Both the position numbers and the translations under genes were made by a program. From contig JAFTOT010000075.1 in assembly GCA_017463665.1 (NCBI GenBank), forward strand, positions 1-42,062: a stretch of 42,062 bases of DNA, written 5' to 3'. Of this stretch, positions 3,716-36,505 are shown in pieces (the stretch's first letter is position 1; each line of letters starts with the position of its first letter). Below the pieces are notes generated by a model. The model was not told the origin of the DNA. It worked only from the letters and a program-made list of their open reading frames with translations, and did no database searches. Origin of the DNA: Clostridia bacterium. Its GTDB lineage: Bacteria; Bacillota; Clostridia; Oscillospirales; CAG-272.

Positions 3716-5431
3716 TTGAAACGAATTCTCAAATACCTTGCAAAGTACAAGGGCATGGCGATCTTGGCGCCGCTGTTTAAGATGATAGAGGCGACCTTTG
3801 AGCTGCTGGTGCCGCTGGTGGTCAAAGACCTCGTGGATGTGGGCATCCAAAACGGCGACAAGCCCTACATCATCAAAATGTGCCTGACCCTCGTGCTGTT
3901 TTGCGCCTTCGGCTTTCTCAGCGCGGCGATCGCGCAGTATTTCTCGGCAAAAGCCGCCGTCGGCGTGTCAAAAGACCTGCGCCGCGATATGTACGCGAAG
4001 ATCCAGACCTTTACCCACAGCGATCTGGATACCATCGGCGTTTCCAACATTCTTACCCGCATGAGCGGCGACGTCAACCAGGTGCAGACGGGTATCAACG
4101 TCACGCTGCGTCTGCTGATGCGCTCGCCCGTGGTCGTATTCGGCGCGGTGATCTTCGCTTTCTCCATCGACGTCGGCTGTGCGATCATCTTCGCAGTCGT
4201 GGTACCGCTGCTGCTGGCGGTGGTATTTGCGATATTGCTTGCGACCATCCCGCTCTTCAAAAAAGTGCAGAAAAACCTCGAGCGCGTACTGCGTTCCACC
4301 CGCCAGAGCCTGACGGGTACGCGCGTGATCCGCGCGTTCTGCGCCGAGGACAAGCAGGTGGAAGACTTCGACCGCGAGAACGACGCGCTGTTTGACCTGC
4401 AAAAATTCACCTCCAAGATCTCGGTGCTGATGAACCCGCTCACCTATCTGCTCATCAACTTTGCGATCATCGTGCTGATCTACACGGGCGCGATCCGCAT
4501 GGAGAGCGGCATCATCACGCAGGGCGCACTGCTCGCGCTCTACGACTACATGTCGCAGATCCTCGTCGAGCTGATCAAATTTGCAAACTTCATCATCACC
4601 ATGACCAAGGCGATCGCCAGTGCTGGGCGCGTGGACGAGTTCTTTAACGAGGGCAAGCTGCCCGAGGCGGTCAAGGCAGAGCACGACGAAAAAGCGCCTT
4701 TCATCACCTTTGACCACGTCTCCTTTGCCTACCCGAGCGGCGGCAATGTCCTGCACAACATCAGCTTTACCGCAGAGCGCGGCGAGACCGTCGGCATCAT
4801 CGGCGGTACGGGAAGCGGCAAGACCTCGCTGGTATCGCTGATCCCGCGCTTCTACGACGCGACCGAGGGCACCGTCAAGGTGGACGGACTCGACGTGCGC
4901 GCCTACAAGGGTGAATCGCTCAAACTGCGCATCGGCGTTGTCCCGCAAAAGGCAGTGCTGTTTGCAGGCACCATCCGCGACAACATGCGCTGGGGCAAGG
5001 AAGATGCGACCGACGAGGAGATCCTCGCCGCCATCGAGACCGCACAGGGCGGCGACATCGTCTCCGCAAAAGGCTCGCTGGATGCCGCTGTGACCGAGGG
5101 CGGCAAAAACTTCTCGGGCGGTCAGCGGCAGAGACTGACCATCGCCCGCGCACTGGTGCGTAAACCCGAAATTCTCATCCTCGACGACAGCGCGAGCGCG
5201 CTCGACTATGCCACCGACGCACGGCTTCGCATGGCGATCCGCGATATGCAGAGCGCGCCGACGACCTTCATCGTCTCGCAACGCACCGCGTCGGTCATGC
5301 ACGCGGACAAGATCATCGTGCTCGACGACGGCGAAACGGTCGGCATCGGCACGCACGATACGCTGCTCGAAAGCTGCCCGATCTACAAAGAGATCTATGA
5401 TTCCCAGTTCAAGGGAGGTGAGCGCAAATGA
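3716..5431 (+). CDS. ABC exporter half-transporter A (degenerate ATP-site subunit)
   Basis: A 571-residue subunit of a type IV (multidrug-like) ABC exporter: a six-helix membrane domain (about residues 15-310), then the nucleotide-binding domain. Walker A is GGTGSGKT (363-370), the Q-loop is in GVVPQKAVLF, and the signature is FSGGQRQR. In Walker B, ILILDDSASALD, the catalytic Glu is replaced by Asp (D491). The switch His is replaced by Gln (Q522 in IVSQRT). These substitutions are typical of the degenerate-site subunit in heterodimeric exporters such as TM287/288 and BmrCD. The TTG at 3716 is chosen as start because GGAG precedes it by 8 bases; the longer frame would cross the promoter. It overlaps the partner gene by 4 bases. 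The substrate cannot be read from sequence. Confidence 0.9.
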   Translation: MKRILKYLAKYKGMAILAPLFKMIEATFELLVPLVVKDLVDVGIQNGDKPYIIKMCLTLVLFCAFGFLSAAIAQYFSAKAAVGVSKDLRRDMYAKIQTFTHSDLDTIGVSNILTRMSGDVNQVQTGINVTLRLLMRSPVVVFGAVIFAFSIDVGCAIIFAVVVPLLLAVVFAILLATIPLFKKVQKNLERVLRSTRQSLTGTRVIRAFCAEDKQVEDFDRENDALFDLQKFTSKISVLMNPLTYLLINFAIIVLIYTGAIRMESGIITQGALLALYDYMSQILVELIKFANFIITMTKAIASAGRVDEFFNEGKLPEAVKAEHDEKAPFITFDHVSFAYPSGGNVLHNISFTAERGETVGIIGGTGSGKTSLVSLIPRFYDATEGTVKVDGLDVRAYKGESLKLRIGVVPQKAVLFAGTIRDNMRWGKEDATDEEILAAIETAQGGDIVSAKGSLDAAVTEGGKNFSGGQRQRLTIARALVRKPEILILDDSASALDYATDARLRMAIRDMQSAPTTFIVSQRTASVMHADKIIVLDDGETVGIGTHDTLLESCPIYKEIYDSQFKGGERK

Positions 5432-33299: not shown

Positions 33300-34175
33300 A
33301 TGAACCTGCTGCAAAATTTTCTCCCGCGCTTCTCCGAGAAAAACGATGCCGAAGCGCTCGATCGCGTACATAAGATCCCTGTTTGCCGCATCCTGCCGAA
33401 CCCCGCTCAGCCACGCAAGTATTTTGACAGCAACGAGACGCTGCGCCTTGCCGACAGCATTCGCCTGCACGGTATTCTCCAGCCGCTCTGCGTACGCAAA
33501 CCTGTGAGTGAAGGAGACCTTGACGATTTCGGCGGCGTATATGAGCTGATCTCGGGCGAACGGCGGCTGCGCGCAGCAAAACTGCTCGGACTCGCCGAAG
33601 TCCCCTGCATCATCATCGAAGCGGACAGCCTGCGCTCGGCAGAGCTTGCCATCATCGAGAACCTGCAGCGCGAAGATCTCAACATCTTTGAAGAAGCGTC
33701 CGCCATCGCCGCGCTGATCGACCTCTACGGGCTCACCCAAGAGGAAGTCGCGGCAAAGCTCTCCGCGAGCCAGTCCTATGTGGCAAACAAGCTGCGCCTA
33801 CTACGCTTTGACGAGCTCGAACAGCGCACCATTCTCGAAAAGCACCTCACCGAGCGGCACGCGCGCGCCCTGCTCCGCATCGCCGATCCCAAAATGCGAA
33901 AAGCCGCACTCGACACCATCGTGGAGCGCGGCTACAACGTCGCCGAGACCGAAGGCTTTGTCGCAAAGCTCATCGAGGAGACCGCCCCGCAAAAAGCGCC
34001 GTCCAAGCCGCGCACCGCGCTGGTCAAGGACATCCGCATTTTCTACAACACCCTCGACCGCGCCGTAGACATCATGCACCGCGCCGGCATCGACGCAAAA
34101 TCCCAGAAAAAAGACCTCGGCGACGTGTACGAAATCACGGTGAGGATCCCGAAGTGCAAGACGGAGGAAGTGTAG
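33300..34175 (+). CDS. noc: ParB-like nucleoid occlusion protein Noc
   Basis: A 291-residue ParB/Noc DNA-binding protein. The N-terminal CTPase/ParB domain shows LPNPAQPRKYFDSNETLRLA (32-51), GERRLRAAKLLGL (86-98) and the ENLQREDLN motif (120-128). The central helix-turn-helix is LTQEEVAAKLSASQSYVANK (145-164). Position after mnmG-rsmG is where Bacillus and many Clostridia carry noc rather than parB. An N-terminal amphipathic stretch (MNLLQNFLPRF) matches the membrane-targeting helix expected for Noc, which couples chromosome position to Z-ring inhibition. AAAGGAAG precedes the ATG. Its last 12 codons are duplicated in diverged form at 35221-35256. Confidence 0.9.
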   Translation: MNLLQNFLPRFSEKNDAEALDRVHKIPVCRILPNPAQPRKYFDSNETLRLADSIRLHGILQPLCVRKPVSEGDLDDFGGVYELISGERRLRAAKLLGLAEVPCIIIEADSLRSAELAIIENLQREDLNIFEEASAIAALIDLYGLTQEEVAAKLSASQSYVANKLRLLRFDELEQRTILEKHLTERHARALLRIADPKMRKAALDTIVERGYNVAETEGFVAKLIEETAPQKAPSKPRTALVKDIRIFYNTLDRAVDIMHRAGIDAKSQKKDLGDVYEITVRIPKCKTEEV

Positions 34176-34183
34176 AGGAAAAG
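34136..34183 (+). repeat. 3' end of noc, native copy of a flanking duplication
   Basis: This segment matches 35221-35268 at about 39 of 48 positions. Both copies encode VRIPKCKTEEV in the same frame with mostly third-position differences. Confidence 0.8.
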
Positions 34184-34198
34184 CGGAATAACCAAATT

Positions 34199-35098
34199 TT
34201 ATGATTTTAACACGTTCAAATAATCGTCCAAGCGTTGATTCACATATTCTGCAATAAGCGTTATCATTGCATCAGCGTTGCCATCACGATAATACGAGTC
34301 AAACGCCTGATAATACCGCTTGCGATCGGCAAACTTAACATTGATCGCAGGATAGCCGTTTCTAATAAGTTCAAGGTTCAGCAAAAGTCTGCCGGTTCTG
34401 CCGTTGCCGTCAATAAACGGATGAATACCCTCGAACTCAAGATGAAAAAGAGCAATACGTTTTACAACCGGCATGATTTGCTCTCGCGCATTGTTATTGC
34501 GAATCAGTTCTTCCATCTTAGGTGCAATCAAATACGGCTGTACAGGCTCGGTATATGCACCCATGATTCTGACGGGAATACGGCGATACACGCCTTTGTC
34601 CTCCGGCTGATGCATTAAAACAAGTGAATGGATATTTTTTATTGTAGATTCATTCAGCGGAACATCTTTGGTTGCGATCTCCCTCACATACAGAAAAGCA
34701 TCCCGATGACCGACTGCTTCCAGGTGGTCTTTGAGAGGTTTTTGGTCAACCGTCATGCCTTCAAGAACCATAGCAGTTTCTTGCAAAGTGAGAGTGTTTC
34801 CTTCGATTGCATTGGAATTATAGGTGAACTCCACCATAAACTCCTGACGCAAGCGATTGAGCTCTCCTTGCGTAAGCGGACGCATGGCAGCAAGACGAGC
34901 TTTTTTCTCTTCAATGATCTGCAACAGATCGGTTTTGGTTCTCCTGCCATCGATCGGTTTTTCTGCGTTTTCGGGAATCATATACAGATTCCCTTTGCGG
35001 ATAACGCCGTCTATTTTCCCCTCAGCACATAAAATACGCACTCGCCGTGCCGATATTCCCCACTTCTCTGCTGCTTTTGATACTTTTATATATTCCAT
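34199..35098 (-). CDS. Fic-domain protein (AMPylator-type) with N-terminal helix-turn-helix
   Basis: A 299-residue protein. The N-terminus (4-41, VSKAAEKWGISARRVRILCA then EGKIDGVIRKGNLYMIP) is a MerR/excisionase-like DNA-binding domain. Residues 95-101, SNAIEGN, are the inhibitory (S/T)xxxE(G/N) helix placed N-terminal to the Fic core, making it a class II Fic. The catalytic motif HPFIDGNGRTGR (226-237) is complete. Class II enzymes transfer AMP to protein hydroxyls and are self-restrained by the inhibitory Glu. TGGAGG precedes the ATG at 35098 by 8 bases; the longer TTG start overlaps that site. Base composition is visibly more AT-rich than the core genes. It converges on noc with 23 bases between stops and no terminator. 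Confidence 0.92.
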   Translation of the reverse strand: MEYIKVSKAAEKWGISARRVRILCAEGKIDGVIRKGNLYMIPENAEKPIDGRRTKTDLLQIIEEKKARLAAMRPLTQGELNRLRQEFMVEFTYNSNAIEGNTLTLQETAMVLEGMTVDQKPLKDHLEAVGHRDAFLYVREIATKDVPLNESTIKNIHSLVLMHQPEDKGVYRRIPVRIMGAYTEPVQPYLIAPKMEELIRNNNAREQIMPVVKRIALFHLEFEGIHPFIDGNGRTGRLLLNLELIRNGYPAINVKFADRKRYYQAFDSYYRDGNADAMITLIAEYVNQRLDDYLNVLKS

Positions 35099-35117
35099 AT
35101 GCGTTACCTCCAAAATA

Positions 35118-35130
35118 TATACTTAGTATA
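35118..35130. promoter_or_regulatory. Palindromic operator over the fic promoter -10
   Basis: TATACT-T-AGTATA is a perfect 13-base palindrome that includes the -10 box of the fic promoter. The N-terminal helix-turn-helix of Fic itself is a candidate ligand. Confidence 0.5.
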
Positions 35131-35153
35131 CCGCATTTTAGGAATAATAGCAA
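35125..35153 (-). promoter_or_regulatory. Promoter of fic
   Basis: Minus strand TTGCTA (35153-35148), 17-base spacer, TATACT (35130-35125), 27 bases ahead of the start codon. Confidence 0.75.
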
Positions 35154-35220
35154 TCGGATTTTTATATTTTTGTCGCTTAAAATTCCTTTTTTTAAAATAT
35201 CGGGAACAATAAAGACCGGG

Positions 35221-35268
35221 CACCGTAAGGATCCCGAAGTGTAAAACGGAAGAAGTGTGGGGGATGAG
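35221..35268 (+). pseudogene. Diverged second copy of the noc 3' end
   Basis: In frame it reads VRIPKCKTEEV like the end of noc, but the stop is changed (TGT-AG to TGT-GG) so the frame runs on through WGMRV to a TAG at 35272-35274. Differences from 34136-34183 are mostly synonymous, so this is DNA that evolved as noc in another lineage and not random similarity. Just beyond it is a nested hairpin (35272-35313). Confidence 0.75.
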
Positions 35269-35334
35269 AGTTTAGGCATACCAACATCTCCGCCCGAGAT
35301 GTGAGTGCCCTAACCATTCATTTACAAAACAAAC

Positions 35335-35622
35335 CTAATTTGAAGCCAGCTGTTCCGCAGTAATCAATGCTTCTGTTGCGATTTTTGTTCCCATGCAGAA
35401 GCCATCGCAAAAAGCCTGCTCAACGGTTACGATCATATATTCCGTAAAGCAATTCTTATACTTTTCAAAGATCATCTTTTGATTTTCATTCAAAACCGCT
35501 TCCAGCTTTTCAAGGTTATTTTGCATTAAATCTTCCAGTTGCCGCATTTCCGAATTGTTCTTGCCTGAATGTCGAACCGGTTCAAGATTACCATTCCAAA
35601 GTTGCGCAATCGTTTTTGTCAT
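35335..35622 (-). CDS. DUF6809-type small protein
   Basis: A 95-residue, predicted mostly helical cytoplasmic protein. The start TKTIAQLWNGNLEPVRHSGK, a central coiled-coil-prone segment (LEDLMQNNLEKLEAVLNENQ) and YMIVTVEQAFCDGFCMGTKI are the features of the DUF6809 family found in Firmicutes accessory DNA. The function is unknown. The ATG at 35622 follows TGAGGTGA; the longer frame would cover the promoter. It is transcribed divergently from the ribbon-helix-helix gene through a shared operator region, which suggests joint repression. Confidence 0.8.
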   Translation of the reverse strand: MTKTIAQLWNGNLEPVRHSGKNNSEMRQLEDLMQNNLEKLEAVLNENQKMIFEKYKNCFTEYMIVTVEQAFCDGFCMGTKIATEALITAEQLASN

Positions 35623-35659
35623 ATATGTCACCTCAAAAATCAATAGTGGTACCACTCGG

Positions 35660-35688
35660 ATTATATCACAGTGATACCACTATTTCAA
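35660..35688 (-). promoter_or_regulatory. Promoter of the DUF6809 gene
   Basis: Minus strand TTGAAA (35688-35683), 17-base spacer, perfect TATAAT (35665-35660). One operator pair occupies the spacer. Confidence 0.82.
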
Positions 35689-35739
35689 GGGAGTAGGCTA
35701 AAATTCTACGAAATAGCCAAAATGTACCACCGTGGTATC

Positions 35740-35768
35740 TTGCAAGTTGTACAAAGGTGGTATATAAT
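35740..35768 (+). promoter_or_regulatory. Promoter of the RHH repressor gene
   Basis: TTGCAA (35740-35745), 17-base spacer, perfect TATAAT (35763-35768); GTGGTA lies in the spacer directly before the -10. Confidence 0.82.
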
Positions 35769-35785
35769 GATACCGAGGTGGTAAT

Positions 35786-35938
35786 ATGACAAACAAAATC
35801 CAAGTAAATCTGCGTCTGCCCGCAGAAGTGATTCAACAACTGAAAGCAGAAGCCGAAAAACAAAAAAGAAGCGTGAACAATCTACTGGAAGTTATCATCG
35901 AAGAATATCTGCAAAAATCCGATTCACAGAATATGTAA
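35786..35938 (+). CDS. Ribbon-helix-helix (CopG/Arc-type) repressor, 50 residues
   Basis: A small DNA-binding protein. Translation gives MTNKIQVNLRLPAEVIQQLK, then AEAEKQKRSVNNLLEVIIEE and YLQKSDSQNM. Residues 4-11 (KIQVNLRL) form the DNA-contacting beta ribbon. LPAEVIQQLKAEAEKQ is helix A, and SVNNLLEVIIEEYLQ is helix B with the conserved (S/R)-N turn. It works as a dimer. GAGGTGG provides a strong ribosome binding site that is itself inside an operator. It is the obvious ligand for the surrounding GTGGTA array. It resembles antitoxin-type RHH proteins, but no adjacent toxin is evident unless the DUF6809 protein plays that part. Confidence 0.9.
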   Translation: MTNKIQVNLRLPAEVIQQLKAEAEKQKRSVNNLLEVIIEEYLQKSDSQNM

Positions 35939-35943
35939 AACCA

Positions 35944-35976
35944 AAAACAGGTGCCGGCACAGCCGACACCTGTTTT
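35944..35976 (+). terminator. Terminator of the RHH gene
   Basis: A 15-base stem with one mismatch (AAAACAGGTG-C-CGGC with its complement), loop ACA, ending in TTTTCTAT. It lies 5 bases after the stop codon. Confidence 0.87.
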
Positions 35977-36021
35977 CTATTATAAATAAAATCCTTGTTT
36001 TAAAGACGGACGATGCGCAAC

Positions 36022-36162
36022 CTCAAATCTTCGATTTGAGCTAACTTTAAAACTCCTTACAGGTCGCGAGCGGTTGAGCGCGACTGTAAGTCGATAGGAA
36101 CGAAGTTCCTTAGTCGCTGAGACTTGCGACCTCATCCAGTCGAAAGTCTTGACTTTCGACTG
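36022..36162. repeat. Cluster of palindromes at the island boundary
   Basis: The segment contains CTCAAATC-TTC-GATTTGAG (36022-36040), an outer pair GGTCGC (36062-36067)/GCGACC (36126-36131) enclosing AGGAAC-GAA-GTTCCT (36096-36110), and CAGTCGAAAGTC-TT-GACTTTCGACTG (36137-36162). It is non-coding. The last hairpin could terminate the darA transcript, although the T tract is on the plus strand. Confidence 0.7.
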
Positions 36163-36168
36163 ATATTT

Positions 36169-36495
36169 TTACAGCTTTCCCATATCATCGACGTTGAGGA
36201 TGAAGTACGTCGCGCCGCCGACGGTGATCTCGGATTTGATGCCGTCGGGACGGAGACCTTTGCCGAGGGAATTCTGGCTGGGCACGGTGGTTTTATGCTT
36301 GGAGCAATACTTCTTCAAAATCGCAACCAGCTCATCCACGCGTTCGTCCTCGGTGCCGATCAGCAGCGTGGTGTTGCCGACCTGCAGAAAACCGCCCGTG
36401 GTGGAAAGCTTGGTCACGAAGAAGCCATCCGCCGTAAGCGCCGAGGAAGCGATGGCACTGTCATCGTTATGGATAATAGCAAGTACGAGTTTCAT
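36169..36495 (-). CDS. darA: Cyclic-di-AMP receptor, DarA/PstA (PII-like) family
   Basis: A 108-residue PII-like trimeric protein that binds c-di-AMP in Firmicutes. Signatures are KLVLAIIHNDDSAIASSALT at the start, FFVTKLSTTGGFLQVGNTTL (26-45) with the conserved GGFL-x-GNTT nucleotide-binding loop, LIGTEDERVDELV, and VGGATYFILNVDDMGKL at the end. Partners of DarA proteins are largely unknown. AAAGGAG precedes the ATG, 10 bases after the DUF1854 gene, so it is the last gene of the ABC-DUF1854 operon. Confidence 0.93.
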   Translation of the reverse strand: MKLVLAIIHNDDSAIASSALTADGFFVTKLSTTGGFLQVGNTTLLIGTEDERVDELVAILKKYCSKHKTTVPSQNSLGKGLRPDGIKSEITVGGATYFILNVDDMGKL

Positions 36496-36505
36496 AGTGA
36501 CTCCT

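Follow-up and report, generated by a model that had tools for sequence, protein, structure and literature searches.

A recurrent DUF6809 cassette of Clostridia with strong divergent promoters, a dense putative operator array and exchangeable small repressors

The acr genes, known for inhibition of CRISPR, have strong promoters with inverted repeats, and Aca proteins, which are exchangeable, shut these promoters (PMC9410906). The acr-aca systems thus bring together small effectors, near-consensus promoters, inverted repeats in the core promoter and a small dedicated repressor, and the Aca family can differ between homologous acr genes (PMC9410906). The aca gene encodes an HTH-type protein and is usually a downstream gene of the acr operon. 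Other small repressors belong to the RHH (Arc/CopG) group. Arc and Mnt of P22 are minimal RHH repressors, and Arc contacts its operator through Gln9, Asn11 and Arg13 (PMC12645479). Omega (ParB) of pSM19035 is also a small RHH protein, with short repeat arrays over promoters that consist of WATCACW heptads (PMC9499535). In addition, RHH is a common DNA-binding domain of antitoxins, and type II antitoxins usually have a separate toxin-binding C-terminal part (PMC4803016).

Here we describe a cassette in which a DUF6809 gene, encoding a putative effector, diverges from the gene for a small repressor. The cassette is real and recurs in related gut bacteria, and it is undescribed in the literature searched, in which we found no paper naming DUF6809. 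Its regulatory half is well supported by sequence comparison. We estimate a probability of roughly 60% that the cassette is a stand-alone unit with a DUF6809 effector gene that is driven by a strong promoter and silenced by a dedicated autorepressor, this effector probably being an anti-host or anti-defence protein derived from mobile elements.

The window, a stretch of 42,062 nucleotides that was analyzed as a whole, comes from a draft genome (1.77 Mb, 84% complete) whose relatives are Clostridia. The DUF6809 gene occupies positions 35335 to 35622 of the minus strand (ATG at 35622, stop at 35335, 95 amino acids) and has a ribosome site, GAGGTGA, at 35628-35634. In a profile search, PF20648 matched the protein over positions 1-85 of 85 with 69.1 bits (cut-off 27), which places it in DUF6809. 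The RHH repressor gene (35786-35938, plus strand) encodes 50 amino acids and is preceded by the ribosome site GAGGTGG (35775-35781). Three models score above their curated cut-offs on this protein (RHH_5, 36.4 bits; Arc, 31 bits; RHH_1, 23.4 bits), and together with an alignment to Arc, covering a beta strand plus two helices, they assign it to the RHH (Arc/CopG) group. With these scores and the opposite strands of the two genes, the divergent DUF6809/RHH pair described in the original prediction is borne out. Behind the RHH gene, a terminator-like hairpin (35943-35977; 16 pairs, 8 of them GC) was called on the minus strand, and a T run follows this inverted repeat on the plus strand too.

The nearest solved relatives of the RHH protein are Arc and Mnt (E about 0.004-0.006), and like them it is a minimal RHH repressor. 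Its strand motif, Q6-x-N8-x-R10, is as in P22 Arc, such that the strand Q-V-N-L-R corresponds to the reading residues Gln9-Asn11-Arg13 (PMC12645479). However, the similarity to Arc is weak (E about 0.004), and the word read by Arc, a TAGA box, differs. Searches with the RHH protein gave six Arc-like repressor matches in phage records, no relatives in a scan of viral contigs and no match in a plasmid search.

Two near-consensus promoters were predicted to point away from each other, and they are indeed the top two of 7 promoter-like matches in positions 35000-36500, where shuffles lead us to expect 2.6 +/- 1.8. The DUF6809 promoter (TTGAAA-17-TATAAT; 35660-35688, minus strand) agrees with the consensus at 11 of 12 positions and has a TG ahead of its -10 element, and the RHH promoter (TTGCAA-17-TATAAT; 35740-35768, plus strand) agrees at 10 of 12. 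The 163-bp gap between the genes (35623-35785) also contains 7 exact GTGGTA or TACCAC half-sites. Among 1,000 dinucleotide shuffles of the gap, 761 had no half-site and the maximum was 3, and the whole 42-kb window has only 17. The dense array that had been noticed earlier is therefore present in the described positions: half-sites lie in both promoter spacers, near both starts and on the RHH ribosome site (35778-35783).

Most half-sites pair into a 13-bp unit, TACCACnGTGGTA, which describes the operator best and is found with 0-2 mismatches at four places in the gap. A perfect copy, TACCACCGTGGTA (35725-35737), lies just upstream of the RHH -35 element, and the same site is present in locus L046 (see below). 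The other three have 2 mismatches each: TATCACAGTGATA (35664-35676) lies in the DUF6809 promoter spacer and overlaps the -10 element, TACAAAGGTGGTA (35750-35762) lies in the RHH promoter spacer, and TACCGAGGTGGTA (35771-35783) lies over the RHH ribosome site and has equivalents in loci L041, L046 and L048. There are also two 10-bp palindromes. One of them, GTGATACCAC (35671-35680), was recognized from its sequence and half-sites and overlaps TATCACAGTGATA in the DUF6809 promoter spacer. The other, GTGGTACCAC (35646-35655), consists of two exact half-sites just downstream of the DUF6809 -10 element, in the region of the transcript start. With candidate sites in both promoters, the anatomy is consistent with the self-regulated two-gene module that had been proposed. 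In the 1.77-Mb draft assembly, the perfect unit is found once (35725-35737), and a one-mismatch unit occurs at one other place. Given this single perfect copy, the RHH protein looks like a local regulator, and it probably is one.

The array resembles that of Omega in that short repeats extend over promoters, and TATCACA in the window fits one of the Omega heptads. However, the units in the window are 13-bp pseudo-palindromes instead of contiguous WATCACW heptads, the RHH sequence is Arc-like, and the cassette has no gene for a partner ATPase.

In the mechanism that we favor, RHH dimers on the sites within the -35/-10 gap would block RNA polymerase and thereby keep the DUF6809 promoter silent. 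RHH dimers on their own promoter and ribosome site would lead to autorepression and limit further RHH synthesis. When the repressor is absent or diluted, for example, when the cassette is newly in a naive cell, a burst of DUF6809 would result, and the gene would be shut off again as the repressor builds up. A strong promoter pays off only when its gene is at times fully on; the obvious occasion would be arrival in a repressor-free cell, an argument that has been made for acr-aca loci (PMC9410906).

When about 85,000 genomes were scanned with the DUF6809 protein as query, 15 relatives were found. The original prediction proposed a check for recurrence of the RHH neighbor with the same half-site, and this check succeeds in three other genomes. 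In loci L041, L046 and L048, a homologous RHH protein, 61-73% identical to that of the window, is encoded divergently at 170-195 bp from DUF6809. A close RHH relative in genome G273 (L164 and L193) adds no independent case, since L041 comes from this genome too. Sites that match in at least 8 of 12 positions number 7 in the window, 5 in L046 and 3 each in L041 and L048, with shuffle means of 0.5-1.0. In L046, a perfect 13-bp unit lies at the corresponding position and the window's other sites have counterparts, and the sites of L041 and L048 are fewer and more degenerate than those of L046. At the same threshold of at least 8 of 12, the operator word was found in none of eight control DUF6809 upstream regions that are XRE-linked, linked to another RHH or regulator-free. 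Because the word is present in the loci with RHH homologues and absent from the eight controls, it belongs with this repressor and not with DUF6809. We infer that the RHH protein binds the TACCACnGTGGTA sites. In L048, the RHH protein (4693-4827) has the strand E-V-K-L-R in place of Q-V-N-L-R, and the sites read TTGGTACC in place of GTGGTA; reading residues and operator possibly co-vary in this locus.

DUF6809 is not restricted to this arrangement. PF20648 is present in 75 of the 146 related genomes sampled, and most DUF6809 genes in them have no divergent regulator; the divergent-repressor design is one DUF6809 mode among several. We searched the ORFs of 147 fetched loci with DUF6809, XRE and RHH profiles. 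A divergent XRE or RHH gene was found within 360 bp of 30 distinct DUF6809 genes out of 141. Of the 375 other genes in these loci with 120 codons or more, 4 have such a neighbor. The commonest divergent partner is a small XRE repressor with its own operator, and RHH proteins are in the minority. This extends the original prediction: XRE partners outnumber RHH partners, and what the cassettes have in common is the design of promoter and operator, not the RHH family. A class-wide search added few more divergent cases, among them L217 and L220 from other genomes. L220 is from another family of the class and has a spacer palindrome.

The DUF6809 promoters of the 30 divergent cassettes are near consensus. 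The promoter score averages 11.07 in these cassettes versus 8.22 in DUF6809 genes with no divergent regulator (Mann-Whitney p 4e-13), and the spacer palindrome averages 5.27 versus 3.30 pairs in other DUF6809 genes (p 1e-7), but these p-values are overstated because the sequences are related and not independent, and a sounder measure is the occurrence of about ten different words, as judged by eye. Spacer palindromes at p <= 0.01 occur in 9 of the 30 divergent cassettes versus 1 of 81 others. Examples are TTGACAtatatccaaatggatatTATAAT (L120), TTGGCAagcaccctataaggtgcTATAAT (L039) and TTGACTttactatcaaatgatagTAAAAT (L037). The operator word varies by lineage and is, for example, ATATCCAAATGGATAT in L120, GCACCCTATAAGGTGC in L039, ATAGTCGAAAATTCGACTAT in L043 and TACTATCAAATGATAGTA in L037. 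The palindrome fits the 17-bp spacer in many cassettes, often with a second copy near the start or upstream. By the score used, no significant spacer palindrome was found in L041, L046, L048, L049 or L029, all of which have RHH partners, or in several XRE cassettes (for example, L115 and L119). In DUF6809 genes with no divergent regulator, the strong promoter and the spacer palindrome are mostly missing. Most divergent loci have no close same-strand gene after DUF6809, and many have a convergent neighbor. Four loci of one genome (L029, L076, L135 and L136 of G109) have similar imperfect inverted repeats, of the GCACAAATATTTTACCATGTGC type, upstream of DUF6809; L029 has a divergent RHH of another type, and L136 has a same-strand RHH-like ORF upstream.

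We also studied how partners are distributed on a DUF6809 tree, which is based on only 86 columns and has many open forks. RHH linkage changes six times on this tree, and supported branches force at least three changes. A clade of 12 that includes the window's DUF6809 (support 99/88) has nine members linked to XRE, two linked to RHH and one that is regulator-free. Judged from this tree, XRE and RHH partners have been exchanged for one another inside one supported clade. Compared with the window, L041, L046 and L048 have RHH proteins that are 61-73% identical and DUF6809 proteins that are about 46% identical. The nearest relatives of the window's DUF6809 are at 62% (regulator-free) and 58% (XRE-linked). 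Because RHH identity exceeds DUF6809 identity and the nearest DUF6809 relatives are regulator-free or XRE-linked, the two genes do not travel as a fixed pair. Co-transfer of RHH and DUF6809 as a unit was considered and rejected, since XRE-linked DUF6809 proteins are nearer to that of the window than other RHH-linked ones. Assembly of the design has happened more than once, with repressors of different families, and thus selection appears to act on the combination of a strong DUF6809 promoter with tight, dedicated repression rather than on an RHH-DUF6809 complex.

This exchange of partners bears on the earlier suggestion that the unit is toxin-antitoxin-like, in which case DUF6809 would be toxic and the RHH protein would serve as its antitoxin, through repression as well as neutralization. 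Two small genes in an accessory location, one of them with a domain common in antitoxins (PMC4803016), would suit this role, and BrnA and RelB-like antitoxin models match the RHH protein weakly. However, these matches fall under the curated cut-offs, and the RHH protein stops about 5 residues past its second helix, such that a toxin-binding region is missing. Moreover, the genes are divergent and the partner is exchanged, as opposed to a stable pairing in one operon: unrelated XRE proteins replace RHH within one DUF6809 clade, and four loci (L036, L044, L045 and L113) have DUF6809 with no recognized regulator. We regard this suggestion as unlikely. A toxic DUF6809 may, however, be under transcriptional control alone.

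The DUF6809 protein itself was aligned with its relatives (n = 14; 32-62% identity), among which an EQAFCDGF block is invariant, partly as an artefact of the search, in which this peptide was a seed. An AlphaFold model (mean pLDDT 89, pTM 0.60) predicts a helical hairpin, mainly a 20-residue helix packed against a 49-residue helix. The model has no match in the PDB, and Foldseek comparison with viral models produced nothing but noise. No function for DUF6809 emerged from PHROGs, NCBIfam or PADLOC, and there was no match to a phage-function or defence library. With DUF6809 as query, a viral-contig scan found no relatives, a plasmid search found only two distant matches and phage records gave three weak, unannotated matches. 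A weak UPF0149 match for the DUF6809 protein of L037 (E 0.001, under the cut-off) was dropped in view of the model, which has no PDB match.

Most likely, DUF6809 acts as a small helical effector, useful for a short time and costly if constitutive. Our leading guess, held with low confidence, is that it is an anti-host or anti-defence burst protein. The "burst" part derives from promoter strength plus putative repression and the "anti-host" part from the mobile-element kin of the family, and the biochemical activity is guessed. Alternatively, DUF6809 could inactivate the repressor of its own cassette and so form a bistable switch. The divergent layout is like that of phage-type switches, and a small helical hairpin, as modeled, would be plausible as a repressor antagonist. 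However, one DUF6809 clade must then inhibit partners of two unrelated folds, no further target genes adjoin the cassette, and the genome has a single perfect operator. We consider such a switch quite unlikely, and return to the preferred reading, an effector under a dedicated autorepressor.

The source genome has four DUF6809 genes, and two of the others have divergent XREs. In G005, a genome of the same genus with flanks about 90% identical, positions 34159-36165 (containing the Fic gene, the module and a repeat) give way to 1.06 kb of unrelated sequence that contains a different XRE, and the site is therefore variable. Its neighbors are a parB-like gene on one side and a gene for a cyclic-di-AMP receptor on the other (L192 4356-5418 versus window 34159-36165). 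The repeat (35990-36180) is rich in short inverted repeats and gave 22 matches within the source genome, with 80-94% identity for the longer matches; by its sequence, it is a MITE- or REP-like element adjoining the module. The Fic gene (34199-35101) shares the variable stretch with the DUF6809/RHH module, and its product has an N-terminal HTH_17-like part and matches the PADLOC SoFic and PDC-S04 candidate defence models. The Fic gene lies downstream of DUF6809 on the same strand, but we set it aside as an operon mate: 230 bp separate the two, Fic comes with a promoter-like site of its own, and an inspection by eye of genes downstream of DUF6809 did not show it again.

Many other DUF6809 genes adjoin TnpV, HTH genes or, in one case, an integrase, and therefore the family has mobile-element members. 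The plasmid or prophage origin that had been proposed for the window copy stands only in part: the module is accessory, being absent from the G005 site and having TnpV-linked kin, but no integrase or plasmid gene was recognized beside it. In L061, L017, L099 and L006, DUF6809 is beside TnpV (PF14198), often directly downstream, and a same-strand HTH_26/XRE gene is nearby. TnpV adjacency is a second conserved DUF6809 context. Although these genes belong to the same Pfam family as that of the window, they are accompanied by TnpV and same-strand HTH genes and have neither a divergent repressor nor a strong promoter.

The occurrence of DUF6809 beside TnpV, XRE and one integrase, and the variation of the site between same-genus genomes, would also fit a remnant, kept by chance, of a lost mobile element that had used the repressor as its immunity regulator and DUF6809 as its first early gene. 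However, in many unrelated places the cassette is found by itself next to housekeeping genes, its promoters and putative operators intact, which looks like selection, not decay. We regard a remnant as unlikely, and the selected, stand-alone cassette remains our preferred reading.

Of the described systems, acr-aca shares with the DUF6809 cassette, as far as sequence can indicate, the small effector, the near-consensus promoter with inverted repeats in its core, the small dedicated repressor and the pairing of homologous effectors with different repressor families. Unlike aca, however, the repressor gene here is divergent, not downstream in the same operon, and is of the XRE or RHH type. The likeness is formal and regulatory, inhibition of CRISPR being known for acr and not for DUF6809. 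A more ambitious proposal is that DUF6809 is a widespread anti-host (anti-defence) family of Clostridia mobile elements, carried in burst cassettes with interchangeable, unrelated repressors that follow acr-aca-like logic on divergent promoters and include both RHH and XRE proteins. This proposal strikes us as doubtful.

The repeated, convergent design of an extreme promoter, a custom operator and an exchangeable repressor suggests that uncontrolled expression of DUF6809 is costly and that a pulse of it is useful. The cassette provides a concrete and cheap experimental handle on an uncharacterized family, and the DUF6809 cassettes together constitute a natural set of matched repressor/operator pairs of two folds.
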